In this document: in pieces, positions 1,087-51,431 of the stretch | Layout of the letters: each line of letters begins with the position of its first letter | Position numbering within the stretch: the first letter of the stretch is position 1 | Source: Janthinobacterium agaricidamnosum | Lineage (GTDB): Bacteria > Pseudomonadota > Gammaproteobacteria > Burkholderiales > Burkholderiaceae_D | Direction of reading: 5' to 3' | Assembly: GCF_003667705.1 (NCBI RefSeq) | Contig: NZ_CP033019.1 | Span: forward strand, 558,001-622,000 | Length of the DNA stretch: 64,000 bases | Made by a program: the position numbers and the translations under genes | The notes under the pieces: model-generated | The model's input: only the letters and a program-made list of their open reading frames with translations | Told to the model about the DNA's origin: nothing | Databases searched by the model: none

Positions 1087-2283
1087 TCAAATCACGGCCC
1101 CCAGCTTGAAAATCGGCAAATACAGGGCAATCACGAGGGAGCCGACGAGCACACCCAGCACCACCATCAGCGCCGGTTCCAGCAGGGCCGACAGGGTGGC
1201 GACGGTGGCGTCGATGTCCGCCTCGATGATCTCGGCCGCCCGCGACAGCATGGCGTCGAGCGCGCCCGATTCCTCGCCGATCAGGGCCAGTTGCGTCAGC
1301 AGCGGGGGAAACACGCCGCTGTGCTCCATGGCCAGGGCCAGGCTGCCGCCGGCGCGGATTTCACGCTCGATGCGCGCTGTCGCTTCCTGGTATAGCGCGT
1401 GGCCGGAGGCGGCGCCCACGAGGCCCAGCGAGTCGAGCAGCGGCACGCCGGCGGCGAACATGGCGGCCAGGGTGCGCGTCCAGCGGGCGATTGCCGCCTT
1501 GCGCAGGAGCGGGCCGAACACGGGCAGGCGCAGTGCCCGCAGTTGCGTGTTGCGTCTTAAGGCGGGCCAGCAGCGCCAGGCCAGGTGCAGCAGCACGCAA
1601 GCGAGCACGAGCGCTGCCAGCAAGACCAGCCAGTAGCGGACCAGAAAGGCGGACACGCCCATGACGGCCAGGGTGGGCAACGGCAAGGGCGCGCCGAAGC
1701 TGTCGAAGACCTGGCGGAAGGCGGGCACGACCACGCTCATGATGATGGCCGTGACAACGATGGCGACGAGTACGATGACCAGCGGATACATCAGCGCGCC
1801 GCGCACCTGCCGCCGCAAGGCGATGGCTTTTTCCTGATGCGTGGCCAGGCGCGCCAGCAAGTCCTGCACGATGCCGGCCTGTTCGCCCGCCGCCAGCAGG
1901 TTGCAATACAGCTCGTCAAACAGCAGGGGAAACTGGCGGAACGCTTGCTGCAGGCTGCTGCCCGCTTCGATGTCGTGGCGCAGGTCGCGCATCAGCTCGG
2001 TGATCGCGGGTTTGGCGTGCCCCTTGCCGGCGATGTCGAAGGCGTGCAGCAGCGGCACGCCGGCCGCCATCATGGTCGACAGCTGGCGCGTGAACAGGGC
2101 AATATCCTTGCGCGTGATGGCCTTGCCCGGCGCGCTGCGCGCAGCCTGCACCCGGGTGGCCAGGATGCCCTGGCGTCTTAGCGCGACCGTGGCTGCGCCG
2201 GCGTCGGCGGCGCGCAAGACGCCTTCGGCCGCCTTGCCATGGCGGTCCGTGCCCTTCCATGCAAAGCGCCGCTCGGCCGCCAT
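1087..2283 (-). CDS. Type IV pilus/type II secretion inner-membrane platform protein (PilC/GspF family)
   Basis: A 398-residue protein with two T2SS-F domains, the expected architecture for PilC/GspF, the polytopic inner-membrane protein that couples the assembly ATPase to pilin polymerisation. The first F domain (about 65-190) begins FTRQLSTMMAAGVPLLHAF and the second (about 268-390) WTRTLAAMFAAGVPLLDSL, showing the internal duplication. Hydrophobic segments lie near residues 165-190, 210-235 and the C-terminus. I choose the ATG at 2283 because AGGAGG sits 5 nt upstream; a GTG two codons earlier would overlap that site. Length matches the family (about 400). No pilB, pilD or pilin gene is adjacent, so this is an orphan copy here, and it may be PilC proper or a secretion paralogue. 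Confidence 0.9.
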   Translation of the reverse strand: MAAERRFAWKGTDRHGKAAEGVLRAADAGAATVALRRQGILATRVQAARSAPGKAITRKDIALFTRQLSTMMAAGVPLLHAFDIAGKGHAKPAITELMRDLRHDIEAGSSLQQAFRQFPLLFDELYCNLLAAGEQAGIVQDLLARLATHQEKAIALRRQVRGALMYPLVIVLVAIVVTAIIMSVVVPAFRQVFDSFGAPLPLPTLAVMGVSAFLVRYWLVLLAALVLACVLLHLAWRCWPALRRNTQLRALRLPVFGPLLRKAAIARWTRTLAAMFAAGVPLLDSLGLVGAASGHALYQEATARIEREIRAGGSLALAMEHSGVFPPLLTQLALIGEESGALDAMLSRAAEIIEADIDATVATLSALLEPALMVVLGVLVGSLVIALYLPIFKLGAVI

Positions 2284-2356
2284 GTGCACCTCCTGCCGTC
2301 ACGGTAGCAGCGCCGGACAAAAGCACCAGCGGCGCTGGCGGCAGGCTTGATGTGGC

Positions 2357-3829
2357 TCAGCCTTTTGTGGTTTGCACTTCCGTCTGCACAACGGCCTGGG
2401 CCTTCACGTCGGCCGCATCGTCCTCGTCGCTGTCCGTGCCCTTGCTGATGCTTTCGCCATCGTCGCGGCGCAGGGTCCAGAAGGTCAGCGAGGACAGCAC
2501 CGTCAGCGCGGCCAGGGTCAGGAAGGCGTGGTGCAGGGCCGTACTGAGCATGGCGCGGTCCGACTGCGGCATGTCGCCCAGGTACCAGCCCGTGATCAGC
2601 GAGCCGAAGGCGAGGCCAAAGCTCATCGACAGTTGCTGCATCGAGCTGGCGATGGTGCTGGCCATGCTGGAATCGGCCTTGTCGACGTCGGCATACGCGA
2701 TGGTGTTCATGCTGGAAAACTGCAGCGAATTGAAAAAGCCCATGCACAGACTGATGGCGACAATCACGTACAGGGGCGTGCCCGCGCCCACCTGCGAAAA
2801 CATGGCGATGGTGATGCCGATCAGCACGGTGTTGACGATCAGCACCTGGCGGTAGCCGAAGCGGGCCAGCACGCGCGCGGAAATGAATTTCATGCCCATG
2901 GCGGCGGCCGCGGACGGCATCATCAGCAAGCCCGATTGCCAGGCGGGCAAGCCCAGGCCCAGCTGGTACAGCAGCGGCAACAGGAAGGGCAGGCCGCCCA
3001 CGCCCAGGCGCGTGACGAAGCCGCCCACCACCGAGACGCGGAAGGTGCGGATCTTGAACAGGGTCAGGCGCAGCAGCGGGTGCAGCACTTCGCTCGAATG
3101 CCAGGCATACGCGGCCAGCAGGCTGATGGAGATGAACAGCAGCACGGCAAACGAAGTGCCGTCGATGCGATGTTCGCCGAAGATTTCCAACAGCCACGAC
3201 AGCAGCGCGATACCCGTGCCGAACAGCACCAGGCCGATCAGATCCAGCGGACGGGGCTTATCGCCGTAATAGTCGGGCATGTAGCGGTGCGCCAGGTACA
3301 GCGCCGCCAGGCCGACAGGCACGTTGACGAAGAAAATCTCGCGCCACGACAGCCAGTGCACGATCAATCCTCCCACCGTGGGGCCCAGCAGGGGGCCGAT
3401 CAGGGCAGGGATGATGACGAAATTCATGGCCGCCAGCAATTGCGACTTGGGAAAGGTGCGGATGATGGTGAGCCTGCCTACCGGCATCATCATGGCCGCG
3501 CCCACCCCTTGCAGCAGGCGCGCGGCCACCAGCATGGGCGCATTGACGGACAGGCCGCACAGGATGGAAGCGATGGTAAAGATGGCAACGGCGGCGGAAA
3601 ACACGCGCCGCGTGCCGAAGCGGTCGGCCATCCAGCCGCTGATGGGAATGCACACGGCCAGGCTCAGGATGTAGCTGGTGACGACGGCCTTCAGGCTCAG
3701 CGGCGTCACATGCAGGCTGGCGGCCATGGCGGGAATGGCGGTGTTGACGATGGTGGAGTCGAGTTGCTCCATGAACAGGGCGGTGGCGACCACCCAGGGA
3801 AGGTAGCTTTTAATCGGGGAACTGGTCAT
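2357..3829 (-). CDS. MFS multidrug exporter, DHA2 (EmrB/QacA) family
   Basis: A 490-residue, strongly hydrophobic protein of the major facilitator superfamily. The N-terminal segment carries the DHA2 signature LDSTIVNTAIPAMAASL in TM1, motif A GWMADRFGTRRVF between TM2 and TM3, and the motif C region around residues 140-160 (PALIGPLLGPTVGGLI), which marks drug:H+ antiporters. The last 35 residues are polar and acidic. It would export drugs or lipophilic compounds using the proton gradient at the inner membrane. Its start is poorly preceded by a ribosome-binding site. It is divergent from the lipoprotein gene at 4036, and the shared gap contains a strong palindrome. No membrane-fusion partner is adjacent, so it may act alone. 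The substrate is unknown. Confidence 0.9.
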   Translation of the reverse strand: MTSSPIKSYLPWVVATALFMEQLDSTIVNTAIPAMAASLHVTPLSLKAVVTSYILSLAVCIPISGWMADRFGTRRVFSAAVAIFTIASILCGLSVNAPMLVAARLLQGVGAAMMMPVGRLTIIRTFPKSQLLAAMNFVIIPALIGPLLGPTVGGLIVHWLSWREIFFVNVPVGLAALYLAHRYMPDYYGDKPRPLDLIGLVLFGTGIALLSWLLEIFGEHRIDGTSFAVLLFISISLLAAYAWHSSEVLHPLLRLTLFKIRTFRVSVVGGFVTRLGVGGLPFLLPLLYQLGLGLPAWQSGLLMMPSAAAAMGMKFISARVLARFGYRQVLIVNTVLIGITIAMFSQVGAGTPLYVIVAISLCMGFFNSLQFSSMNTIAYADVDKADSSMASTIASSMQQLSMSFGLAFGSLITGWYLGDMPQSDRAMLSTALHHAFLTLAALTVLSSLTFWTLRRDDGESISKGTDSDEDDAADVKAQAVVQTEVQTTKG

Positions 3830-4035: not shown

Positions 4036-5181
4036 ATGAAAAATGCACTTACCTTCCTTGCCCTGAGCGCCGCCCTGTCCGCCTGCGGCGGCGGCAGCGA
4101 TGGCGGTACGCCGGAAGCGCCAGTCACGCCGCCCGTCGTGGTCACGCCCGTCGCCGATCCCGTGACGGTCGCCTCGCAAGCGGTCGCGGCCCAGGCTGGC
4201 CTGGCCGTGATCGCCGGCGCCAATGCGGACGAGACGGTGTATGACGTGGCGGCCGATATCGGCGACACGTGGCGCATCACGTTCGACAGCGCGAAGAAAA
4301 CCTACGCGATCCGCGTGCTGTCGACGCAGTTCGGCTTGAGCGACCGCAGCGGCACGTTCAGCGCCGTCACCGTCGGCAATCTCACCACTTACACGGCAAC
4401 GGATTTCAGCGTCACCGTCGACGCGCGCACGCGTCTTCTTTCGGGCAATATCAAACTGGGTAATATGGTCTCGACCGTCAGCGGCACCGGCTATGCGGTG
4501 GGCGACGTGGCCAGACTGGCCGGCAGCTATATTTTCCTGGGGGCCATGCGCAATGCCTCGAACGGCGGCGACCGTTTCAATCCGAAAGGCAGCCTCAAGG
4601 TAGCGGCCGATGGCAGCGCGCAACTGTGTAATGGCGGCGTATTCAATGCGCAAGGCGTGTGCTCCGCGGTATCGCCGCAGCTGGAAGCGGAAAACGCCAG
4701 CCTGACCCTGGTCAAGGATGCGAAGAATGGTTTGCTCGTCGCCCGCCAGGGCCAGCAGGATTTCGGCATCGTCCACGTGCATGCGGGGGACCGGGGGCTG
4801 GCGCTGTTTATCGACCGCTACAGCCGCAACCAGGAAAACGTGCTGCGCGTGGGCACCATCGTGGCCGCCAAACAACAGAAGATCGGCAGCGAAATCGCCG
4901 GCAGTTACGCCTGCGCGGCGCCGGGCATCAGCGCCAAGATCGAGATTGCGGGCAACACCGCCACCTTGACGAATAACACGAGCGGCAAGACGCACGCGGA
5001 AACCATCACCGCCAACAAGCTGGGCCTGGGCGCGCAGGCCGTCGATTTCGATGGCATCGCCGTGTTCAAGGACCCGGCCGACGTGCCGGCAGATTACTCG
5101 ATGTTCATGCCGGTGTCGTCGAGCATGGCGGTCGAGTTTTCGACCGACCGCTCGTATATGGGCACGTGCCTGAAAAATTAA
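4036..5181 (+). CDS. Putative outer-membrane/periplasmic lipoprotein of unknown function
   Basis: A 381-residue protein with a classical lipoprotein signal: MKNALTFLALSAALSAC, lipobox LSAC with the acylated Cys at 17, followed by GGG and a Pro/Val/Thr-rich linker (about 22-45). The second residue after Cys is Gly rather than Asp, consistent with outer-membrane sorting. The start at 4036 is chosen because an earlier in-frame ATG (3988) would bury the signal peptide. The rest is Thr/Ser/Gly-rich, beta-type sequence with three cysteines in the middle and C-terminal parts, and I recognise no domain. It is monocistronic and divergent from the exporter. The function cannot be assigned. Confidence 0.8.
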   Translation: MKNALTFLALSAALSACGGGSDGGTPEAPVTPPVVVTPVADPVTVASQAVAAQAGLAVIAGANADETVYDVAADIGDTWRITFDSAKKTYAIRVLSTQFGLSDRSGTFSAVTVGNLTTYTATDFSVTVDARTRLLSGNIKLGNMVSTVSGTGYAVGDVARLAGSYIFLGAMRNASNGGDRFNPKGSLKVAADGSAQLCNGGVFNAQGVCSAVSPQLEAENASLTLVKDAKNGLLVARQGQQDFGIVHVHAGDRGLALFIDRYSRNQENVLRVGTIVAAKQQKIGSEIAGSYACAAPGISAKIEIAGNTATLTNNTSGKTHAETITANKLGLGAQAVDFDGIAVFKDPADVPADYSMFMPVSSSMAVEFSTDRSYMGTCLKN

Positions 5182-5206
5182 GAGGTGCCGCCACGTGCCT
5201 GTGTGA

Positions 5207-5240
5207 GTAGGTCGGGTTAGCCGGTACGGCGTAACCCGAC
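5207..5240. repeat. REP-like palindrome, copy 1
   Basis: Short hairpin element beginning GTAGGTCGGGTTAG and ending CGTAACCCGAC. The same pattern (GTAGGTCGG-TTAG...CGTAA-CCGACA) recurs at 23879-23909, 51509-51539 and 51609-51643. Here it lies between the convergent 3' ends of the lipoprotein gene and cobQ and could also act as a terminator. Confidence 0.75.
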
Positions 5241-5247
5241 ATCACCA

Positions 5248-6702
5248 TCAGCGTGGCATTCGTTCCAGCGCATCCATCAACGGCATCGCCGCATCGGCAA
5301 TCCGTTCCAGGCTCGCTTCGCGCAGGGCGGCGGTGTCCACCGTGTGGCCGGAGTCCAGCCCCGCCCAGCGCAGCAGCGCCGCACACGCGGCGGGCGTGTC
5401 GAACATGCCGTGCAAGTAGCTGCCGAGGATTTGCCCGTCGCCCGATACGGCGCCTTCCGGCCGCCCGTCGATGACGAAAGCCGGCTGCGCCAGCGCCGCG
5501 CCATGCGACATGCCCATGTGGATTTCATAGCCTGACACGGGCGCTTCGGCCGCGCCGCCAAACGCGCAATGGCCGGCGACTTGCTGCAGGCGTTTTTCCG
5601 CTGTCAGCTCCGTCACCAGGTCGAGCAAACCCAGTGCCGCTGACTCTCCAGCCGCGCCTTCCACGCCCCGCGGATCGCGCACGCTTTGCCCCAGCATCTG
5701 GAAGCCGCCGCAGATGCCCAGCACCTTGCCGCCATAGCGCAGGTGCTTGGCCAGGTAGGCGGGCCAGCCTTGCTGCTGCAGCCAGGCCAGGTCGCCACGC
5801 GTGTTCTTGCTGCCGGGCAGGATCACCAGGTCGGCCGGCGGAATCGGCTGCCCCTGCTGGATAAATTGCAGGTCGATGCCGGGGTGGGCGCGCAGCGCGT
5901 CGACATCCGTGTGGTTGCTGATGCGCGGCAGTTGCGGCACCACCACCTTGAAGGCGCCCCGTTCGGCTTGCGTCGTTTCGACGGCGTCTTCCGCATCGAG
6001 GAACAGGCCTTGCAGGTAGGGCAGCACGGCCAGCACGGGCTTGCCCGTCTGCTGTTCCAGCCACTCGATGCCGGGCGCAAGCAGCGAGATGTCGCCGCGG
6101 AAGCGGTTGATGACGAAGCCGACGATGCGTGCCCGTTCGCTGTCGGACAAACACGCCAGGGTGCCGATGATGTGGGCGAAGACGCCGCCCCGGTCGATGT
6201 CGGCCACCAGGATCACGGGGCAGTCGACGGCTTCGGCAAAGCCCATGTTGGCGATGTCGCGCGCGCGCAGATTGACTTCGGCGGGGCTGCCCGCGCCTTC
6301 GACGATGACGGCGTCGTATTGCTGGCGCAAGCGCGTAAAGGATTCCAGCACGGCGCCCATCGCGATGGTCTTATATTGCTGGTAGTCGCGCGCATCCATC
6401 TCGGCGCGTACCTTGCCGTGGATGATCACTTGCGCGCCCGTGTTCGACGACGGTTTCAAGAGCACCGGATTCATGTCCGTGTGCGGCGCGATGCCGCAGG
6501 CCAGCGCCTGCAAGGCCTGGGCGCGGCCGATCTCGCCGCCGTCGCTCGTCACCGCGCTGTTCAAGGCCATGTTTTGCGGCTTGAACGGCGCTACCGTCAC
6601 GCCACGCCGTTTCAATAAGCGGCACAGGGCCGCGACGACGGTGCTCTTGCCCGCGTCGGATGTCGTGCCCTGCACCATCAGGACGGGGAAGGGGCTCTTC
6701 AT
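5248..6702 (-). CDS. cobQ: Cobyric acid synthase (glutamine-dependent amidotransferase)
   Basis: A 484-residue enzyme that amidates the b, d, e and g carboxylates of adenosylcobyrinic acid a,c-diamide, giving adenosylcobyric acid. The N-terminal dethiobiotin-synthetase-like domain starts [20 protein letters not shown] (P-loop), with [10 protein letters not shown] and the [12 protein letters not shown] segment typical of CobQ. The C-terminal class I glutaminase-like domain shows the nucleophile elbow [11 protein letters not shown] and the late His in GSYLHGMF. The start at 6702 overlaps the stop of the preceding gene (ATGA), so it is translationally coupled as the last gene of the B12 operon. 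No cobB/cbiA or ring-synthesis gene is near, so it probably works on scavenged incomplete corrinoids. Confidence 0.95.
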
Positions 6703-15294: not shown

Positions 15295-15430
15295 GATAAT
15301 TTTCAGTAAGTAATATGCAACCAGCCGACGTCCCCGTAGGCCAGATTGAACAGAAGTGGGAACTGAGATTGACGATCGAAGATGGCCATCGGCCATTCGG
15401 ATCGCGAACATCCCCGTTCGCACACTTCCA

Positions 15431-15645
15431 CCTGTCCTGGCCGGTATCCGGGCTGGCAAGTACGGCTATCCCACCTTCCCATGCTCGATGATTGCAAGCA
15501 CAGTGGTTGTCAGAGATAGCTTGTCGTCCGCCTCCTGTTGGGAGGGGCGACACTTGCTTACCGTTGCGGGGGCAGCACACGTTCGCCGCGGGCGCGGCAT
15601 CGTGTTTCCCGTTTAACTGCGCTCATGGACATGAGCGCGGGCACC
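15431..15645 (-). promoter_or_regulatory. Cobalamin (AdoCbl) riboswitch controlling btuB and downstream genes
   Basis: Read on the minus strand, the conserved order of a cobalamin aptamer is present: P2-like hairpin GCGCTCATG/CATGAGCGC (about 15619-15639), AACGGGAA, GTGCTGCCCCCGCAACGGTAA (core and J6/3), a CACTG segment, TGGGAAGG, and the 3' B12-box side GCCAGCCCGGATACCGGCC. It lies between cobC and btuB and is oriented toward btuB. It should shut off importer and salvage genes when AdoCbl is plentiful. The expression platform in the following 130 nt is not resolved; no T-run terminator is obvious. Confidence 0.95.
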
Positions 15646-15707
15646 AAAACCCCGTCATTATACGTGCTGTGGGCGTGGACTGATATGGCTTGCTGGACGA
15701 TTCGCTA

Positions 15708-18604: not shown

Positions 18605-20138
<1,534 letters not shown>

Positions 20139-20235
20139 GAGTTTGCACGAACCAGTTAAATGGTTCACGCATCAAATGTTCACACTTATCGGCTGTTAAT
20201 AAGAGAAGAAACAGTAGTCGTAGAAGTTCCGCGTT

Positions 20236-20312
20236 GGGGCTGTAGCTCAGCTGGTTAGAGCACCGTGTTGATAACGCGGGGGTCGTTGGTTCGAGTCCAA
20301 CCAGCCCTACCA
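20236..20312 (+). tRNA. tRNA-Ile (anticodon GAT), operon 1
   Basis: A 77-nt cloverleaf with acceptor GGGGCTG/CAGCCCT, TTGATAAC anticodon loop (GAT), T-loop GGTTCGAGTCC and an encoded CCA. Standard spacer tRNA. Confidence 0.97.
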
Positions 20313-20339
20313 GTAAGACCCGAGTCGTAGAAATATCCT

Positions 20340-20415
20340 GGGGGATTAGCTCAGCTGGGAGAGCACCTGCTTTGCAAGCAGGGGGTCGTCGGTTCGATCC
20401 CGTCATCCTCCACCA
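20340..20415 (+). tRNA. tRNA-Ala (anticodon TGC), operon 1
   Basis: A 76-nt cloverleaf with acceptor GGGGGAT/ATCCTCC including the G3-U70 alanine identity pair, anticodon loop TTTGCAA and an encoded CCA. It is separated from tRNA-Ile by only 27 nt here, against 107 nt in operon 2. Confidence 0.97.
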
Positions 20416-20493
20416 AGTACTTTGAAAGTGCAAACGTAAGCCAGTCAACAAGACTTGGGTTTAGGTTTGATCTTTTAGCGATCAAAGCTGTTT

Positions 20494-20507
20494 CGTTCTT
20501 TAACAAT
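20494..20507 (+). promoter_or_regulatory. boxA-like element before 23S, operon 1
   Basis: CGTTCTTTAACAAT in the tRNA-Ala/23S spacer, matching the leader element. Confidence 0.5.
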
Positions 20508-20661
20508 CTGGAAGAAGTAAAGATTATTTATTGATCGGTTTGCCGTAAAAAGCGAATCGATGGGTAATGATTGTATGTATCAACAAACAAGCAACAACGT
20601 TGTACTTTCTTATCCCTGTAGCGCTCTTTGATCACCTCGGTGATCAGAGGCTAACGTTATA

Positions 20662-23552
<2,891 letters not shown>

Positions 23553-23686
23553 ATAACCTTAGCAGGTACAGAGGATAAGACGGTACAACGTTGCGTGTGT
23601 GTTGATACCATTCATTACCCCAATCTTTGCTTCTTCCAGATTCATGGCCTTGTCGTCCTACAGGAGACAAGCGTCAGTACAAGTTA

Positions 23687-23802
23687 TGCCTGATGACCAT
23701 AGCAAGTTGGTCCCACCCCTTCCCATCCCGAACAGGACCGTGAAACAACTTTGCGCCGATGATAGTGCTGCAACCAGTGTGAAAGTAGGTTATCGTCAGG
23801 CT
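23687..23802 (+). rRNA. rrf: 5S ribosomal RNA, operon 1
   Basis: About 115 nt, closed by GCCTGATGAC at the 5' end pairing with GTTATCGTCAGGC at the 3' end. Contains the conserved GGTCCCACCCC and CCCGAACAGGACCGTGAAAC blocks. Confidence 0.95.
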
Positions 23803-24028: not shown

Positions 24029-25633
24029 TTATCTAATACTGTCCCATTCCAGGTCAAAGCGGGCCAGGAATTTCTTGAGCCGGTCCGCATCATTCGGTTT
24101 CGCCTTTGCCTCGCGCGAAACGGCATACAGCTTGCGGCCCGCATCGGACAGGCTGTTGGACTGTCGGCACACCTGGATGACTGCCTGCAGCTGCAGCGCA
24201 TCGAACAGATCGAGTTGCGCTGCCGCCTGCTCTCCCATCAGCTCTGCCAGGTCCACTTCCGGCCGACCGGTTCGCCCATCATGATGCTGCCACATCCGGT
24301 TCAGGCGCTGGATCTCTTCGTCGACCACACTATCGGTGATGCGGCCCGCTTCCGACAGCGTGGCAAGGCGCGTGACTGCGGCGGACAGGTCGCGGAAATT
24401 CCCCTTCCATGCGGAGGTGGACAGGGTGGCAAAGCGCATGAAACGCTCGCGCGCCTCCTTGTTGAAGCGCACTCTTTCGCCCGTCTCCGCACCGTACTGC
24501 GCCAGCAGGTAGTCCAGGTTCGGCTCAATATCCTCGGCTCGCTGCGCCAGACCCGGTAATTCGTACGTCCACAGGTTGATGCGCGCATACAGGTCTTCGC
24601 GGAAGCGGCCGGCCGCCACCTCCTTGCCCAGGTCGCGGTTGGTGCCGGCGATCAGCTGGAAGTCGCTTTGCACCTCCGTATCCGCACCAACAGGAAAGAA
24701 GCGTTTTTCTTCGATGGCTTTCAGCAGCATCGCCTGTTCATCGAGTCCCAGTTCGCCGATTTCATCGAGAAACAGCAAGCCCTTGTGCGCGCTGCGCAAC
24801 AAGCCTGGCCTATCCGAACCCGCGCCTGTAAATGACCCCTTGATATGACCGAACAAGGTAGAGGCTGCGCCATCGCCATGCAGGGTGGCGCAATTGAGGT
24901 CGATGAATTTGCCGTCGATCTGATGGCGCGATTTTTTCAGTTCATACACGCGGCGCGCAAGGAAGGACTTGCCGGCGCCGGTTGGTCCCATCAGCAGCAT
25001 GGGCGCTTTTGACTTGATGGCGACGCGTTCGATTTCCTCGATCATGCTATTGAACTTGGCATTGCGCGTGGCGATGCCGGACTTCAGGAAGGCCACGCCT
25101 TCGGCCTGCTCGCGCGTAAAACGCTGAGCGATCTGGTCGTAGCGCGACAGATCGAGGTCGATCAGCGCGTAGCTGCCCGGATTGCCGGCGGCCTGCCGCT
25201 TCGGTGGCGACGTTTGCACCAGGCGGCCCGGGAAATAGCGGGCTTCCGTCATCAGGAACATGCAAATTTGCGCCACGTGGCTGCCGGTGGTGATGTGGAT
25301 CCAGTACTCCTCCTTGTCCGGATCGAAGGCGTAGCTGTTGGCGAAATCGTAGAGCGCGCCGTATACGTCTTCAAAATCCCAGGCATCGCTGATGGGCAGT
25401 TCATGGGCGACCAGCCTGGTTTCAGGCGAGACGCTGGCGATATCCTGCGACACCTGGCGCACCAGGCTGGCAAACTGCTCGCCGGCGTACAGCAGTTCGA
25501 AACGGTCGATGATCTTGTCTTCATGCTGGGTCAGGGCGACGCTGGGGCGCCACTTTTCCCAGCGTGCCGCTCCTCTGCCATTGTCGAGTTGCGTGCCGAG
25601 AAAGCCGATGACGACGGTGCGTTTTGCTTGCAT
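24029..25633 (-). CDS. rtcR: Sigma-54-dependent activator of RNA repair genes
   Basis: A 534-residue enhancer-binding protein. The N-terminal region (1-180) is the RtcR sensory domain, VVIGFLGTQLDNGRGAARWEKWRPSVALTQ, related to CARF domains and known to respond to RNA ends. The central AAA+ domain has Walker A GPTGAGKS (about 216-223), the sigma-54 contact loop as GSFTGA (the RtcR form of GAFTGA), Walker B LLFLDEIGEL and GNFRDL. The C-terminal part (about 470-534) should carry the DNA-binding helix-turn-helix (VIQVCRQSNSLSDAGRKLYAVSR). It is divergent from rsr-rtcB-rtcA, whose -24/-12 promoter is in the shared gap. Known family members are autoinhibited until the RNA ligand binds. Confidence 0.95.
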   Translation of the reverse strand: MQAKRTVVIGFLGTQLDNGRGAARWEKWRPSVALTQHEDKIIDRFELLYAGEQFASLVRQVSQDIASVSPETRLVAHELPISDAWDFEDVYGALYDFANSYAFDPDKEEYWIHITTGSHVAQICMFLMTEARYFPGRLVQTSPPKRQAAGNPGSYALIDLDLSRYDQIAQRFTREQAEGVAFLKSGIATRNAKFNSMIEEIERVAIKSKAPMLLMGPTGAGKSFLARRVYELKKSRHQIDGKFIDLNCATLHGDGAASTLFGHIKGSFTGAGSDRPGLLRSAHKGLLFLDEIGELGLDEQAMLLKAIEEKRFFPVGADTEVQSDFQLIAGTNRDLGKEVAAGRFREDLYARINLWTYELPGLAQRAEDIEPNLDYLLAQYGAETGERVRFNKEARERFMRFATLSTSAWKGNFRDLSAAVTRLATLSEAGRITDSVVDEEIQRLNRMWQHHDGRTGRPEVDLAELMGEQAAAQLDLFDALQLQAVIQVCRQSNSLSDAGRKLYAVSREAKAKPNDADRLKKFLARFDLEWDSIR

Positions 25634-25773: not shown

Positions 25774-25789
25774 TGGCACAGCGCTTGCA
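25774..25789 (+). promoter_or_regulatory. Sigma-54 promoter of rsr-rtcBA
   Basis: TGGCACAGCGCTTGCA matches the -24/-12 consensus with GG (25775-25776) and GC (25787-25788) ten bases apart. It lies 50 bp before the rsr ATG and an AT-rich tract precedes it. Confidence 0.9.
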
Positions 25790-25839: not shown

Positions 25840-27411
25840 ATGGCCAACGTCCAGCTATTCCAGAGCGCACAACAGAGCGCGACCTTGCCTTCGGCACTGG
25901 CACGCAATGCCGAAGGCGCGCCAGCGTATGCACTGACGCCACGGCATCAGTTGGCGCAATATGCTGCCACCGGTTGCCTGAACACGACGTTCTATGCCAG
26001 CGCCGAAGCGCAGCTGGCGATGGTACTGGAACTGTGCAAGGCGGTCGAACCAGCCTTCATCGCACAAACGGCCGTGTACTGCCGCGAACGGGGCTACATG
26101 AAAGACATGCCGGCCTTGCTGGTGGCCGTGCTGGCGGGGCAGGGTGCTGCAGAATTTACGCAGGCCTTCCAGCGCGTGATTAACAACGGCAAGATGCTGC
26201 GCAACTTCGTGCAGATCATGCGTTCGGGCGCCGTGGGCCGCAAGTCGCTGGGATCGCGTCCGAAAAAGCTGGTACAGGCATGGTTGAACAACGCATCCGA
26301 GCAGGCCTTGCTGGCCGCTGCCGTGGGCAATGCGCCGTCGCTGGCCGACGTGGTGAAAATGGTGCATCCGAAACCGCAGGCAGCGTGGCGGGAGGCATTC
26401 TTTGCCTGGCTGATCGGCAAGGAATATACACGCGATGCCTTGCCGGCGGCGCTGGCCGCGTTCGAGGCATACAAGGCCGATCCTTCGCAGCCGATACCGG
26501 CAGTGCCGTTCCAGATGCTGACGGCGTTGCCCTTGAGCGCGCAGGATTGGGCGCAGATCGCCCGCCAGGGCAGCTGGCAGATGGTGCGCATGAATCTGAA
26601 TACCTTTGCCCGCCATGGCGTGTACGTGATTGATGGCATGCCGGAACTGATCGCCGCCAAGCTGCGCGATCCCGAAGCGATCGCCAGCTCGCGCGTGTTT
26701 CCCTACCAACTGATGTCGGCGTACATGGCCGCCGGCGACAAGGTACCGTGCATCGTGCATGCAGCGCTGGAGCAGGCGCTGGAAATATCGCTGGCGAACG
26801 TGCCGCGGATCACGGGCAAGGTGGTGGTGTGTCCTGACGTTTCCGGCTCGATGGCCTCGCCCGTCAGCGGTTTTCGCGGCAGCGCCACCTCGAACGTGCG
26901 CTGCATCGACGTGGCGGCTCTGGTGGCGGCAGCCATGCTGCGCAAGAATCCGGACGCCATGGTGCTGCCGTTCGAGCACAACGTGGTGCAGTGCGCACTT
27001 GGCGCCGATGACAGCGTAATGGCGAATGCGGCCAGGCTGGCGGCCATCGGCGGTGGCGGCACCAATTGCAGCGCACCCCTGCTGCGCATGAACAGCAGGA
27101 AGGAGCTGGCCGACCTGGTGATCTATGTGTCCGATAACGAATCGTGGATCGACGCCAGGCGCAGCGGCGCCACGGCGACGATGGGGCAGTGGACGGTTTT
27201 CAGGCAGCGCAATCCGCAGGCAAAGCTGGTGTGCATCGATATTTCGCCGCATGCCACGACACAGGCGATGGAGCGCGAGGATATCCTGAATATCGGCGGT
27301 TTTTCCGACGACGTCTTCAAGATCATCGCCGCCTTTGCCGCCGGTCAGCTGGACCCGGCCCACTGGGTGGGAGAAATCGCCACCATCGATATCGCGGTAC
27401 CAGCTTGTTGA
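25840..27411 (+). CDS. rsr: Ro60-like TROVE/vWA RNA-binding protein
   Basis: A 523-residue bacterial Ro orthologue. The N-terminal two thirds is a TROVE (HEAT-like ring) domain: HQLAQYAATGCLNTTFYASAEAQL, AVYCRERGYMKDMPALLVAVLA, VINNGKMLRNFVQIMRSGAVGRKSLGSRPKKLVQAWL, which binds misfolded RNA and Y RNAs. The C-terminal third is a von Willebrand A domain with a MIDAS motif D333-VSGS (VVVCPDVSGSM), GGGGTNCSAP and YVSDNESW. It is the first gene of the sigma-54-driven RNA repair operon, as in the Salmonella rsr-yrlBA-rtcBA arrangement known from the literature. A good ribosome-binding site (GAGAGGAACG) precedes the ATG. It would act in the cytoplasm in RNA quality control, together with the RNA encoded just downstream. 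Confidence 0.95.
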   Translation: MANVQLFQSAQQSATLPSALARNAEGAPAYALTPRHQLAQYAATGCLNTTFYASAEAQLAMVLELCKAVEPAFIAQTAVYCRERGYMKDMPALLVAVLAGQGAAEFTQAFQRVINNGKMLRNFVQIMRSGAVGRKSLGSRPKKLVQAWLNNASEQALLAAAVGNAPSLADVVKMVHPKPQAAWREAFFAWLIGKEYTRDALPAALAAFEAYKADPSQPIPAVPFQMLTALPLSAQDWAQIARQGSWQMVRMNLNTFARHGVYVIDGMPELIAAKLRDPEAIASSRVFPYQLMSAYMAAGDKVPCIVHAALEQALEISLANVPRITGKVVVCPDVSGSMASPVSGFRGSATSNVRCIDVAALVAAAMLRKNPDAMVLPFEHNVVQCALGADDSVMANAARLAAIGGGGTNCSAPLLRMNSRKELADLVIYVSDNESWIDARRSGATATMGQWTVFRQRNPQAKLVCIDISPHATTQAMEREDILNIGGFSDDVFKIIAAFAAGQLDPAHWVGEIATIDIAVPAC

Positions 27412-27423
27412 AGTAACGCGCAC

Positions 27424-27443
27424 GAATGCCGACAAGACTACAT
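27424..27443 (+). repeat. Rsr-rtcB spacer repeat, unit 1
   Basis: GAATGCCGACAAGACTACAT. 17 of 20 positions or more agree with unit 2. Confidence 0.8.
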
Positions 27444-27485
27444 GAGAGACGTCCTGTCCAGGTTTGTCATGCGCCGCAGTACCCC

Positions 27486-27505
27486 GAATGCCGACAGGAT
27501 TACAT
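27486..27505 (+). repeat. Rsr-rtcB spacer repeat, unit 2
   Basis: GAATGCCGACAGGATTACAT. It forms the longest stem of the three (9 perfect bp). Confidence 0.8.
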
Positions 27506-27589
27506 CGATCAGCCGCGTCAAACCGGCCTGCCAGACGCAGTGCGCCTGGCAGAAAATCCTGTCCCCCCTTGTCGGGTTGTCGTACTGAT

Positions 27590-27609
27590 GAATGCCGGTG
27601 GAACTACAT
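27590..27609 (+). repeat. Rsr-rtcB spacer repeat, unit 3
   Basis: GAATGCCGGTGGAACTACAT. The flanks are conserved and the paired core is changed together with its 3' partner. Confidence 0.75.
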
Positions 27610-27683
27610 CCAGAGCCGATGCGTCGGCAATGTTTCACCAATCCTTGTCATCACCCCCTATACAATAGAAGAAGAGCATAGCG

Positions 27684-28919
27684 ATGAAAAACGAAGAATA
27701 CGAAGTTCTGCATACCGAAGGCAGCCGTCCCGTGAAAATGTGGACGCGTGGCGTGCCTGTCGAAGAAGCGGCCAAAAAACAATTGCGCAACACGGCGACC
27801 CTGCCGTTCATCTACAAGCACATCGCCGTCATGCCCGACGTCCACCTGGGTAAAGGATCGACCATCGGCAGCGTGATCCCCACCCTGGGCGCCGTGATTC
27901 CGGCAGCCGTGGGCGTCGATATCGGTTGCGGCATGATGGCGGCGAAAACCACGCTGACGGCAAATGATTTGCCCGATAACCTGGGGCCGCTGCGCAGCGC
28001 CATCGAGCGCGCCATTCCGCACGGGATGTCGCCGAAGACGCGCGGTCACCGCGGCCGCGACGAGGGTTCCTGGCAGACGCCGCCCTCGGTGGTCGATGCC
28101 GCGTGGCTGCAGCTGAAGGATGAATTCGACGCCATCTGCCTGAAAACGCCCAAGCTGAAGAACACGAATAACTATCGTCACCTGGGAACTTTGGGCAGCG
28201 GTAACCACTTCGTCGAAGTCTGTCTCGATGAACAGGGTTCTGTATGGTTCATGCTGCATTCCGGTTCGCGCGGCGTGGGCAATGCCATCGGTACGCATTT
28301 CATCGAACTGGCCAAGCAGGATATGCGTACCCACTTCATCAACCTGCCCGACCAGGACCTCGCCTATCTGGCCGAAGGCACGCGGCATTACGACGATTAC
28401 GTGGAAGCGGTGGGCTGGGCCCAGCGTTTCGCGCGCAACAACCGCGAAGTGATGATGCAAAACCTGATCGCGGCCGTGCGCACGGTCATCCATAAGCCGT
28501 TCCAGACGCATGTGGAAGCCGTCAACTGCCACCATAACTATGTGCAGAAGGAGCACCACTTCGGCAAGGACGTGTTGGTCACGCGCAAGGGCGCCGTCTC
28601 GGCCCGCGCCGGCGAACTGGGGATCATTCCCGGTTCCATGGGCGCGAAGAGTTTTATCGTGCGCGGCAAGGGTAATGCGGACAGTTTCCATAGCTGCAGC
28701 CACGGCGCGGGACGCACGATGAGCCGTACGGAAGCGAAGCGGCGCTTCAACCTGGACGACCAGATCCGCGCCACGCAAGGCGTGGAATGCCGCAAGGATG
28801 AAAACGTGATCGATGAAATTCCAATGGCCTACAAGGATATCGATGCGGTGATGCTGGCACAGCGCGAGCTGGTCGACGTCGTGCATATCCTGAAGCAGGT
28901 CGTTTGCGTCAAAGGTTAA
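27684..28919 (+). CDS. rtcB: RNA-splicing/repair ligase RtcB
   Basis: A 411-residue GTP- and Mn2+-dependent ligase joining 2',3'-cyclic phosphate (or 3'-phosphate) ends to 5'-OH ends. Metal-ligand segments are visible: VMPDVHLGKGSTIGSVIP, VGVDIGCGMMA (Cys and Asp), LGTLGSGNHFVEV and HSGSRGVGN. The guanylylated histidine is H340 in SCSHGAGRTMSR, matching H337 of E. coli RtcB. Length is about that of E. coli (408). It is the third element of the rsr operon, preceded by the repeat RNA region and a weak purine-rich ribosome-binding site. RtcA follows 16 nt downstream. Confidence 0.97.
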   Translation: MKNEEYEVLHTEGSRPVKMWTRGVPVEEAAKKQLRNTATLPFIYKHIAVMPDVHLGKGSTIGSVIPTLGAVIPAAVGVDIGCGMMAAKTTLTANDLPDNLGPLRSAIERAIPHGMSPKTRGHRGRDEGSWQTPPSVVDAAWLQLKDEFDAICLKTPKLKNTNNYRHLGTLGSGNHFVEVCLDEQGSVWFMLHSGSRGVGNAIGTHFIELAKQDMRTHFINLPDQDLAYLAEGTRHYDDYVEAVGWAQRFARNNREVMMQNLIAAVRTVIHKPFQTHVEAVNCHHNYVQKEHHFGKDVLVTRKGAVSARAGELGIIPGSMGAKSFIVRGKGNADSFHSCSHGAGRTMSRTEAKRRFNLDDQIRATQGVECRKDENVIDEIPMAYKDIDAVMLAQRELVDVVHILKQVVCVKG

Positions 28920-28935: not shown

Positions 28936-29955
28936 ATGATAGAAATTGATGGAGCGCAAGGTGAAGGCGGCGGACAGATTTTGCGCTCGGCGCTGAGCCT
29001 GTCCATGATCACGGCCCAGCCGTTCCGGCTGACGAATATTCGCGCGGGGCGGGACAAGCCCGGCTTGTTGCGCCAGCATTTGCTGGCCGTGCAGGCAGCG
29101 ACCGCCATTTGCGGGGCGCGCACGACGCCGGTGGCGCTGCGCGCAGCCAGCCTGGAATTCGTGCCTGGCCCCATACGCGGCGGCGATTACCGCTTTGCCA
29201 TCGGCAGCGCCGGCAGCTGCACCCTGGTGTTGCAAACCTTGCTGCCGGCTCTGCTGTATGCGGATGGGCCGTCTACCGTGCGCATCAGCGGCGGCACGCA
29301 CAATGCCATGGCGCCGCCCGTGCATTTTTTGCAGCGCGCGTATGGCCGCATCCTGGAACAGATGGGCGCCGAGGTGGAGATTACGCAGCAGCGCTATGGC
29401 TTTCATCCCGCAGGTGGTGGCGAGGTGCTGGCCACCGTGCAACCGTGCCAGCGTTTGCGGCCCATTTCACTGCTGCAGCGCGGCGAGCGGAAGGCCGGGT
29501 ATGCGGAAAGCGTGGTGGCGGGCGTGCATGTGAACGTGGCGCAGCGCGAGCTCGAGCGTGTCGCCGACGGCATGGGCTGGAGCGGCAAGCAGCTGCGTCT
29601 CGTCGGCTTGCCGGCGGAGCAGGGACCGGGCAACGTCCTGTTGCTGACATTGGAACATGAGCACGTCACGGAAGTATTTACGTCGTTCGGCGAAAAGCAC
29701 TTGCTGGCCGAATCCGTGGCCAAGCGCCTGTTGAACGAGGTGCGCGCCTATCTCAAGACGGACGCGGCCGTGGGCGAGCACCTGGCGGACCAGCTCTTGC
29801 TGCCGATGGCGCTGGCCGGCGGCGGTAGCTTCAGTTGCAACAAGGTGTCGCAGCATGCGTTGACGAATGCGGACGTGATTGCCCGCTTCTTGCCCGTGCG
29901 TATCACTTTCGAGCAGCAGGCGCGGGGCAGCATCTGCACGGTGGCCGCCGCCTGA
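28936..29955 (+). CDS. rtcA: RNA 3'-terminal phosphate cyclase
   Basis: A 339-residue enzyme that converts RNA 3'-phosphates to 2',3'-cyclic phosphates using ATP, supplying substrate for RtcB. Landmarks are the start IDGAQGEGGGQILRSALSLS, RAGRDKPGLLRQHLLAVQAA, GSAGSCTLVLQTLLPALL, GGTHNAMAPPVHFLQRA, and near the C-terminus HLADQLLLPMALAGGG followed by the catalytic-histidine region NKVSQHALTN. Length is standard (about 340). It is the last gene of the operon. No terminator is obvious before the next sigma-54 promoter 77 bp downstream, so some read-through into pedF is possible. Confidence 0.96.
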   Translation: MIEIDGAQGEGGGQILRSALSLSMITAQPFRLTNIRAGRDKPGLLRQHLLAVQAATAICGARTTPVALRAASLEFVPGPIRGGDYRFAIGSAGSCTLVLQTLLPALLYADGPSTVRISGGTHNAMAPPVHFLQRAYGRILEQMGAEVEITQQRYGFHPAGGGEVLATVQPCQRLRPISLLQRGERKAGYAESVVAGVHVNVAQRELERVADGMGWSGKQLRLVGLPAEQGPGNVLLLTLEHEHVTEVFTSFGEKHLLAESVAKRLLNEVRAYLKTDAAVGEHLADQLLLPMALAGGGSFSCNKVSQHALTNADVIARFLPVRITFEQQARGSICTVAAA

Positions 29956-46181: not shown

Positions 46182-47715
<1,534 letters not shown>

Positions 47716-47810
47716 GAGTTTGCACGAACCGGTAACGGTTCACGCATCAAATGTTCACACTTATCGGCTGTTAGTCAAAGAAGAAACAGTAGTCGTAGAA
47801 GTTCCGCGTT

Positions 47811-47887
47811 GGGGCTGTAGCTCAGCTGGTTAGAGCACCGTGTTGATAACGCGGGGGTCGTTGGTTCGAGTCCAACCAGCCCTACCA
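47811..47887 (+). tRNA. tRNA-Ile (anticodon GAT), operon 2
   Basis: 77 nt, identical to the operon 1 copy, CCA encoded. Confidence 0.97.
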
Positions 47888-47994
47888 GTAAAAGCGTCAA
47901 ACGAAAGTACAAACCTACTTTCGTTTGGTTGATAGCTAAAAACCACTGGCAAAGCCAGATGATTTTTAGAGATCAAAGCCACGCAAGACCCATA

Positions 47995-48070
47995 GGGGGA
48001 TTAGCTCAGCTGGGAGAGCACCTGCTTTGCAAGCAGGGGGTCGTCGGTTCGATCCCGTCATCCTCCACCA
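47995..48070 (+). tRNA. tRNA-Ala (anticodon TGC), operon 2
   Basis: 76 nt, identical to the operon 1 copy. The spacer from tRNA-Ile is 107 nt here and contains the hairpin ACGAAAGTA...TACTTTCGT absent from operon 1. Confidence 0.97.
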
Positions 48071-48138
48071 AGTACTTTGAAAGTGCAAACGTAAGCCAGT
48101 CAGGTTTAGGTTTGATCTTTTAGCGATCAAAGCTGTTT

Positions 48139-48152
48139 CGTTCTTTAACAAT
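48139..48152 (+). promoter_or_regulatory. boxA-like element before 23S, operon 2
   Basis: CGTTCTTTAACAAT, as in operon 1. Confidence 0.5.
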
Positions 48153-48306
48153 CTGGAAGAAGTAAAGATTATTTATTGATCGGTTTGCCGTAAAACGCAG
48201 ATCGATGGGTAATGATTGTATGTATCAACAAACAAGCAACAACGTTGTACTTTCTTATCCCTGTAGCGCTCTTTTCGTTTGAAAGAATGAAGAGGCTAAC
48301 GTTATA

Positions 48307-51181
<2,875 letters not shown>

Positions 51182-51315
51182 ATAACCTTAGCAGGTACAG
51201 AGGATAAGACGGTACAACGTTGCGTGTGTGTTGATACCATTCATTACCCCAATCTTTGCTTCTTCCAGATTCATGGCCTTGTCGTCCTACAGGAGACAAG
51301 CGTCAGTACAAGTTA

Positions 51316-51431
51316 TGCCTGATGACCATAGCAAGTTGGTCCCACCCCTTCCCATCCCGAACAGGACCGTGAAACAACTTTGCGCCGATGATAGTGCTGC
51401 AACCAGTGTGAAAGTAGGTTATCGTCAGGCT
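51316..51431 (+). rRNA. rrf: 5S ribosomal RNA, operon 2
   Basis: About 115 nt, same sequence as the operon 1 copy by eye, with closing helix GCCTGATGAC/GTTATCGTCAGGC. Confidence 0.95.

Follow-up and report, generated by a model that had tools for sequence, protein, structure and literature searches.

What is encoded in the gap between the Ro60 gene and the RNA ligase gene of a bacterial RNA-repair operon? In the stretch of Janthinobacterium agaricidamnosum DNA analysed here (64,000 nt, called the window), this gap measures 272 nt. It lies in a locus with the layout of an RtcR-controlled RNA-repair operon: a divergent rtcR, a sigma54-type promoter, rsr, the gap, rtcB and rtcA. The activator gene rtcR (24029..25633, minus strand) matches Pfam RtcR in its N-terminal domain (1.1e-82) and Sigma54_activat in its AAA+ domain (1.5e-48). 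A predicted sigma54-type promoter, TGGCAC-N5-TTGCA, can be read upstream of rsr (25774..25789, plus strand), and the pattern recurs in 46 of the 71 loci inspected; every one of the 17 Janthinobacterium loci in that set has it. The Ro60 orthologue is encoded by rsr (25840..27411, plus strand; Pfam vWA_Ro60 3.8e-18, TROVE 7.4e-07). Its product, Rsr, matches the Deinococcus Rsr structure 2nvo (4.8e-22) and is 97% identical to that of Janthinobacterium sp. GW456P, the nearest named relative. Beyond the gap, and on the same strand, stand the RNA ligase gene rtcB (27684..28919; Pfam RtcB 4.7e-132) and the RNA 3'-phosphate cyclase gene rtcA (28936..29955; Pfam RTC 4.3e-75).

On either side of the rtcR-rsr-rtcBA region lies a complete rRNA operon (window 18605-23801 and 46182-51430). 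The two run in the same direction, and their presence would explain why several draft contigs are about 22 kb long. The rsr gene was found in only 17 of 40 Janthinobacterium genomes, suggesting that recombination between the flanking rRNA operons may move or delete the rtcR-rsr-rtcBA block. The window also carries a cobalamin riboswitch (15422-15663, minus strand, 73.1 bits).

The gap contains three units, all in one direction. The original prediction described a block of fixed flanks, GAATGCCG and ACAT, around a variable core, and this block is indeed present three times, starting at 27424, 27486 and 27590. The flank GAATGCCG is the same in the three window blocks but is not fixed in relatives, the other 16 distinct Janthinobacterium unit-1 sequences having GAATGCGG in its place. 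Each core was also said to pair with its own downstream strand. This holds for unit 2 (GACAGGATT at 27493-27501 with AATCCTGTC at 27555-27563) and for unit 3 (GGTGGAAC at 27597-27604 with GTTTCACC at 27632-27639), each of which encloses an inner hairpin as foreseen, but is unsupported for unit 1. There, the GTTTGTC strand proposed as the partner contains the conserved UUGUC element. Across 55 related short units, the pairing of the inner strand with GTTTGTC found no support, with 67.2% of cells paired versus 65.7% after shuffling and a covariation of 0.194 in real and shuffled alignments alike. Pairing the inner strand with GTCCTGTCC (27451-27459) instead, together with an outer helix, gives a covariation of 0.685 versus 0.231 when shuffled.

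This outer helix, missed earlier, is found in every unit. Within it, GA of the GAATGC element is base-paired to UC of UUGUC, and the helix continues outward from there. In order, a unit consists of the outer helix ending in GA/UC, AAUGC opposite the internal loop, the inner helix, UACAU and a variable effector. The returning strand of the inner helix comes next, followed after 3 or 4 nt by (C/U)UUGUC, which leads into the outer helix.

Since no window unit passes the Rfam cut-offs, we built a covariance model, R1, from relatives. Its training set holds window units 1 and 3, not unit 2, and its E-values are rough because calibration was short. The units are named here by classes A to D, into which Oxalobacteraceae units were sorted by outer stem and effector. 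Unit 1 (27418..27475, plus strand; 54.5 bits, E 9.6e-13) is a predicted short, YrlB-like Y RNA of class A with a 12-nt terminal loop, an outer helix at 27418-27425/27467-27474 and an inner helix at 27430-27438/27451-27459, with mismatches in each. Unit 2 (27480..27580, plus strand; 37.3 bits, E 5.9e-08) is of class B, orthologous to class B units of Pseudoduganella and Duganella, and has two effector hairpins. Unit 3 (27584..27656, plus strand; 59.6 bits, E 3.6e-14) combines a class D scaffold with a short hairpin effector at 27615-27628. The array order by class is therefore A, B, D. R1 finds just these three units in the window, the next match having an E-value of 3.1, and they stand alone among the best 150 of 1074 first-look candidates in the genome.

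A stem parser called three units in the real gap; in 1000 dinucleotide shuffles of it, the parser called none. Folded alone, units 1, 2 and 3 have z-scores of -1.24, -4.62 and -1.66, respectively; units 1 and 3 fold slightly better than shuffles, and none of 200 shuffles folded as well as unit 2. The case for the units is carried by comparative evidence, folding alone being weaker. Of 163 units parsed, 57 are short, and alignment A1 holds 55 of the 56 distinct short ones, with units 1 and 3 of the window among them; the unit omitted has an effector of 5 nt. Under the Y RNA structure, 91.6% of A1 cells are paired, versus 66.8% when shuffled and at most 55.3% when slid. Both sides have changed at 15 of 17 scaffold pairs, and the covariation is the 0.685 versus 0.231 given above.

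Because the parser itself demands stems, we added a control with units found by motif only. The parser also called 233 of 239 of these. In 128 of 238 units the four outer pairs are all formed, where swapped flanks give 18.4 on average and never more than 30, and an inner stem of at least 6 bp forms in 212 of 238, versus 80.3 swapped; these units are often closely related and represent 85 distinct flank combinations. The strong scaffold covariation, together with pairing to own flanks far above that to swapped ones, upholds the original prediction of selection on RNA structure. Units are present in related rsr-rtcB spacers, and compensatory changes are abundant among them. In units of L037, L023 and L024, AAATGC and TTGTT replace GAATGC and TTGTC, so that a conserved G-C pair has become A-U by change on both sides.

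In a fold of the whole gap, unit 1 uses CCGACAAG to pair with the strand of unit 2 that carries UUGUC. The other 16 distinct unit-1 sequences differ at the second base of CCGACAAG, leaving a stretch of at most 6 bp. We judge this pairing incidental, and it may form transiently.

The window locus resembles rsr-yrlBA-rtcBA of Salmonella in operon order, in the order of a short then a long Y RNA (yrlB-yrlA), and in scaffold. It differs in having three units versus two, in lacking an intact tRNA-like domain, and in scoring below both Rfam cut-offs. Unit 3 reaches 34.8 bits against YrlA (RF02553; cut-off 69) and unit 1 reaches 16.4 bits (E 8.5) against YrlB (RF02565; cut-off 97), and nothing in the window matches YrlA at its cut-off. 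Among 10 loci scanned, YrlA does pass its cut-off in units of L033, L023, L065 and L024 that share the same scaffold. The Salmonella operon is reported to be under sigma54/RtcR control (PMC7790460, PMC9879122).

A tandem array of three units had been thought unusual, a view that the relatives overturn. Among 42 distinct closed rsr-rtcB spacers outside Janthinobacterium, the parser finds one unit in one spacer, two in nine, three in seven, four in ten, five in eight, six in four, and seven, eight and 13 in one each. At least two units are thus parsed in 41 of the 42, and L019, with one by parser, has two by model. The parser undercounts elsewhere too (five versus six by model in L057), and R1 misses some parser-called units. 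The largest array, in the 1655-nt gap of L078 (reverse strand), has 13 units by parser and 10 by model. Short and long units alternate in it (SSLSLSLSLSLSL), with 12 runs of at most 13 (P 0.0076), the alternation having been tested after it was seen. Massilia arrays read ABABABC (L018, seven units), ABABCD (L016, six) and ABABC (L017, five), and from these orders the duplicated piece looks like a pair of one short and one long unit.

The arrays of L018, L065, L078 and L084, from Oxalobacteraceae and other Burkholderiales, have the same scaffold as the window in the same gap 3' of rsr. Unlike the window, they hold 5 to 13 units by parser and carry tRNA-like domains, opened at the anticodon (class C) or, in L065, in the D-loop (class D). 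Class A comprises the short units. In several genera, class B (CCCCGAATGC...) combines a T-arm hairpin with an acceptor-like one; Massilia B units have no T-arm. Class C (GGCGAATGC...) has a T-arm, a capped acceptor stem and a D-arm and, read by eye, is tRNA-like and opened at the anticodon arm. Class D (GATGAATGC...) is opened in the D-loop and is tRNA-Asn-like as a class, running from the 3' half of the D-stem through an anticodon-arm hairpin, the T-arm and an acceptor stem capped by a short loop to the 5' half of the D-stem. One such D-loop-opened tRNA-like domain on a Y RNA scaffold is the class D unit L065:857-981 (minus strand).

Two further alignments cover the longer units. A3 holds 14 of 15 listed class D units (L079 omitted). 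A2 combines 14 Janthinobacterium B units, all but L072 of the 15 distinct ones, with 11 B units of relatives that have a T-arm or a variant of it, the Massilia B units without a T-arm being omitted. Class D pairs covary, with double changes at 10 of 33 pairs versus 4.9 shuffled. The corresponding count in A2 is 5 versus 3.5, a value matched by 63 of 500 shuffles. Pair-type counts are weak in both (A3, 18 versus 17.5 shuffled; A2, 12 versus 13.2), and the remaining measures exceed every shuffle in both. The best class D example scores 52 points against tRNA-Asn over positions 16-69, with shuffled controls at 29 or below. Of the 14 A3 units, 10 match tRNA-Asn best, seven of them with a clear margin. 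In an isotype test of 100 distinct effectors from outside Janthinobacterium, each with a T-arm and at least 60 nt long, 85 scored above all shuffled controls against 79 distinct reference tRNAs (incomplete sets from two genomes). A clear isotype margin was seen in 27 only, and we therefore do not generalise to a different tRNA source for every unit. The effector of unit 2 in L084 and L085 is closest to tRNA-Leu(CAA), unlike its neighbours in its own array.

Where tRNA mimicry is concerned, Janthinobacterium stands apart. A canonical T-arm, scored by pattern, is missing in 17 of 17 distinct Janthinobacterium spacers versus 0 of the 42 other closed spacers, each of which keeps a tRNA-like module in at least one unit. 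Among 20 loci with no rtcB nearby, six likewise have no T-arm (four with no unit in the scanned stretch and two with one). On a tree of 57 Rsr proteins, the loss, defined by this pattern, is a single change on the branch to 16 Janthinobacterium rows (SH-aLRT 99). The tree started from 79 distinct spacers. Thirteen loci were omitted beforehand, either for want of a full rsr in the stretch retrieved or because they had no more than one unit, and nine of the remaining 66 were dropped for too short a translation (L020, L024, L025, L033, L034, L037, L050, L052 and L100).

The two longer window units show what has changed. Unit 2 aligns with the Pseudoduganella and Duganella B units almost throughout the scaffold. 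In place of the AGCCGGTTCGAATCCGGCC of these orthologues it has AGCCG-CGTCAAACCGGCC, and the T-arm is replaced by a degenerate one (27512..27527, plus strand) with a 4-bp stem and an 8-nt loop, CGTCAAAC. The adjoining acceptor-like hairpin, CTGCCAG/CTGGCAG (27528..27552, plus strand), is retained; at one of its pairs, both sides are changed in 10 of 25 sequences. The effector of unit 3 is 27 nt long, versus 72-88 nt in the 14 class D units of A3. Against the 79 tRNAs, units 1, 2 and 3 reach best scores of 12, 21 and 18, values also reached by 191, 28 and 51 of 200 shuffles. The Pseudoduganella B orthologue reaches 33, which none of 200 shuffles does. No window unit has the tRNA-like domain with T-arm and D-arm that characterises YrlA. 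Unit 3 is missing altogether in 8 of 17 distinct Janthinobacterium spacers; its presence requires four changes on the rsr tree, three of them forced by well-supported (starred) branches, which indicates that it is dispensable or easily lost. By sequence comparison, the window gap is a tandem array of predicted Y RNAs with eroded tRNA mimicry.

Erosion need not mean loss, and the reading that competes best is that unit 2 keeps a working tRNA-like T-arm with a variant loop. A 4-bp stem and a loop of the (G/T)TC(A/G)(A/G)AC type are kept across the genus, the loop of L034 unit 2, CTTCAAAC, is close to a T-loop, and the acceptor-like hairpin persists with its compensatory change. Against this, unit 2 has lost one stem pair and the canonical TTCRA loop, it has no D-arm, and its score of 21, equalled by 28 of 200 shuffles, contrasts with the 33 of the Pseudoduganella orthologue. 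We regard mimicry that is altered, not lost, as possible but rather unlikely. The loss itself is read from structure, and the variant T-loop of unit 2 may still be recognised.

Among 245 family genomes, rsr was found in 38 and R1 units in 39, with 21 first-look candidates scored per genome. Both occur in 37, units alone in two, rsr alone in one (G009, a fragmented assembly) and neither in 205. In L203, four short units (3198-3473, minus strand) lie beside a C-terminal rsr remnant, one with GAATAA and three with GAATGC. L204 has rtcR, rtcB and rtcA, and rsr was not found there; both of its units (3070-3251, minus strand) have GAATAC, and the T-arm of the second is broken. These altered units fit RNAs losing constraint once Rsr goes, in two cases only. 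GAATAC is no proof of decay, since one unit of L060, where the Rsr frame is open, has it as well.

Near the L203 units lie genes resembling a reverse transcriptase (1290-3176) and an insertion-sequence transposase (4690-5523), both named from their translations. A frameshift near residue 306 splits rsr in Janthinobacterium sp. LM6 (L034) or its counterpart G123 (L073); the two have identical gap sequences, and their three Y units look intact despite the split gene. In L092-L095, whose family has small genomes, the model places the Y units upstream of rsr, not downstream.

The gene position beside rsr and the scaffold of terminal helix, GAAUGC/UUGUC internal loop and second helix are those of a bacterial Y RNA. 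Together with the R1 model, the scaffold covariation and the co-occurrence with rsr in family genomes, these features support the Ro-partner reading of the original prediction. The three units are very probably Y RNA genes serving Rsr.

The same prediction offered, as an alternative, an RNA substrate or regulator of the repair operon. In this form, the units would stay within the operon mRNA as structured elements, never released, and act in cis on rtcB translation or on mRNA stability. They do share the operon direction, unit 3 ends 27 nt upstream of rtcB, and a simple scan of the spacer found no promoter-like or terminator-like site. A substrate or cis-regulatory element is not favoured, however, because unit 3 is absent from those 8 of 17 Janthinobacterium spacers, with its four changes on the rsr tree. 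Unit number also varies up to 13, the conserved parts are the Ro-binding elements, and the units co-occur with rsr, with altered units in the genome that has rtcR, rtcB and rtcA but no rsr. We consider control in cis improbable, and favour Y RNA genes.

Short, palindromic, repeated sequences could also belong to a mobile or extragenic palindrome family. Only three copies are present in the 6.36-Mb genome, all in the gap, among the best 150 of 1074 candidates scored. Weaker YrlA matches do occur elsewhere in the genome, three of them with E-values of 8e-5 to 0.0015, but they cover model positions 23-88 only. As further Y units they were rejected, since none of the seven loci has an R1 match. 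In a control at the same loose threshold, 13 of 14 unrelated genomes also gave YrlA matches. Of the best four off-site matches, three (L002, L003 and L004) span the junction of two neighbouring like tRNA genes (Asp-Asp, Lys-Lys and Met-Met). The tRNA scan covered L002-L006; L006 also lies at tRNA genes and L005 holds none. A palindrome family is accordingly a negligible prospect. The junction matches do suggest a possible source for the module itself, because the YrlA effector order of T-arm, acceptor and D-arm reads across such a junction; the permuted tRNA-like domain could possibly have arisen from tandem tRNA genes. That the gap encodes a small protein is scarcely credible, for although an 80-aa open frame (27426-27668) crosses all three units, it has no Pfam match and its length ranges from 6 to 86 codons across the 17 distinct Janthinobacterium spacers, window included.

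How might Y RNAs act from this locus? As reported for Salmonella, RtcR would switch on the sigma54 promoter; its gene and a predicted promoter of this type are both present here. A single transcript would then carry rsr, the three Y RNAs and rtcBA, and the Y RNAs would be cut out of it. Rsr would bind each of them through the outer helix and the GAAUGC/UUGUC internal loop, as suggested by conservation, covariation and co-occurrence. The effector, the part beyond the inner helix, would gate the Rsr ring or tether a partner. At least one effector per array in relatives appears to copy part of a tRNA; in Janthinobacterium, this copy seems degenerate in unit 2 and reduced to a short hairpin in unit 3. 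With effectors so degenerate or cut down, the Y RNAs that serve Rsr in Janthinobacterium are probably short and of the gate type, or else their effectors have ceased to depend on a tRNA shape. If relatives tether through a tRNA-like module, what is left for Janthinobacterium is gating alone or a different contact. Whether the stripped effectors gate or tether at all is, in our estimation, evenly balanced.

Bacterial Y RNAs are described, in the excerpts available, as tRNA mimics that gate or tether Ro60. Deinococcus radiodurans, like the window, has an Rsr orthologue (2nvo) together with a Y RNA, in its case within the Rsr-Y RNA-PNPase complex (RYPER); the comparison made here was of Rsr. Its Y RNA is reported to serve Rsr both as a gate and as a tether to PNPase (PMC4726728, PMC8394870). 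By analogy, the distal part of the window Y RNAs may gate Rsr as in Deinococcus. In the open-licence literature searched, so far as its accessible text extends, we found no account of arrays of more than two units, of the D-loop-opened form or of a loss of mimicry.

Chen, in 2014, reportedly held that at least one Y RNA per species has a tRNA-like domain, which is not required of each Y RNA. Janthinobacterium departs from this rule, judged by the T-arm pattern in 17 spacers and by the tRNA scores of the window units. Tentatively, and with somewhat less than even confidence, we propose that the rsr-rtcB gap is an expandable array of about 2 to 13 interchangeable Ro60 adapter RNAs per genome, whose effectors derive from more than one tRNA and are opened at different places, and that Janthinobacterium has stripped the mimicry array-wide. 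If this is true, the Janthinobacterium array would be a natural test of whether Y RNA function needs tRNA shape. With one genus that has no recognisable tRNA-like domain and relatives that carry up to 13 differing units, the role of mimicry in the Ro60/RNA-repair pathway would become testable by module swaps.
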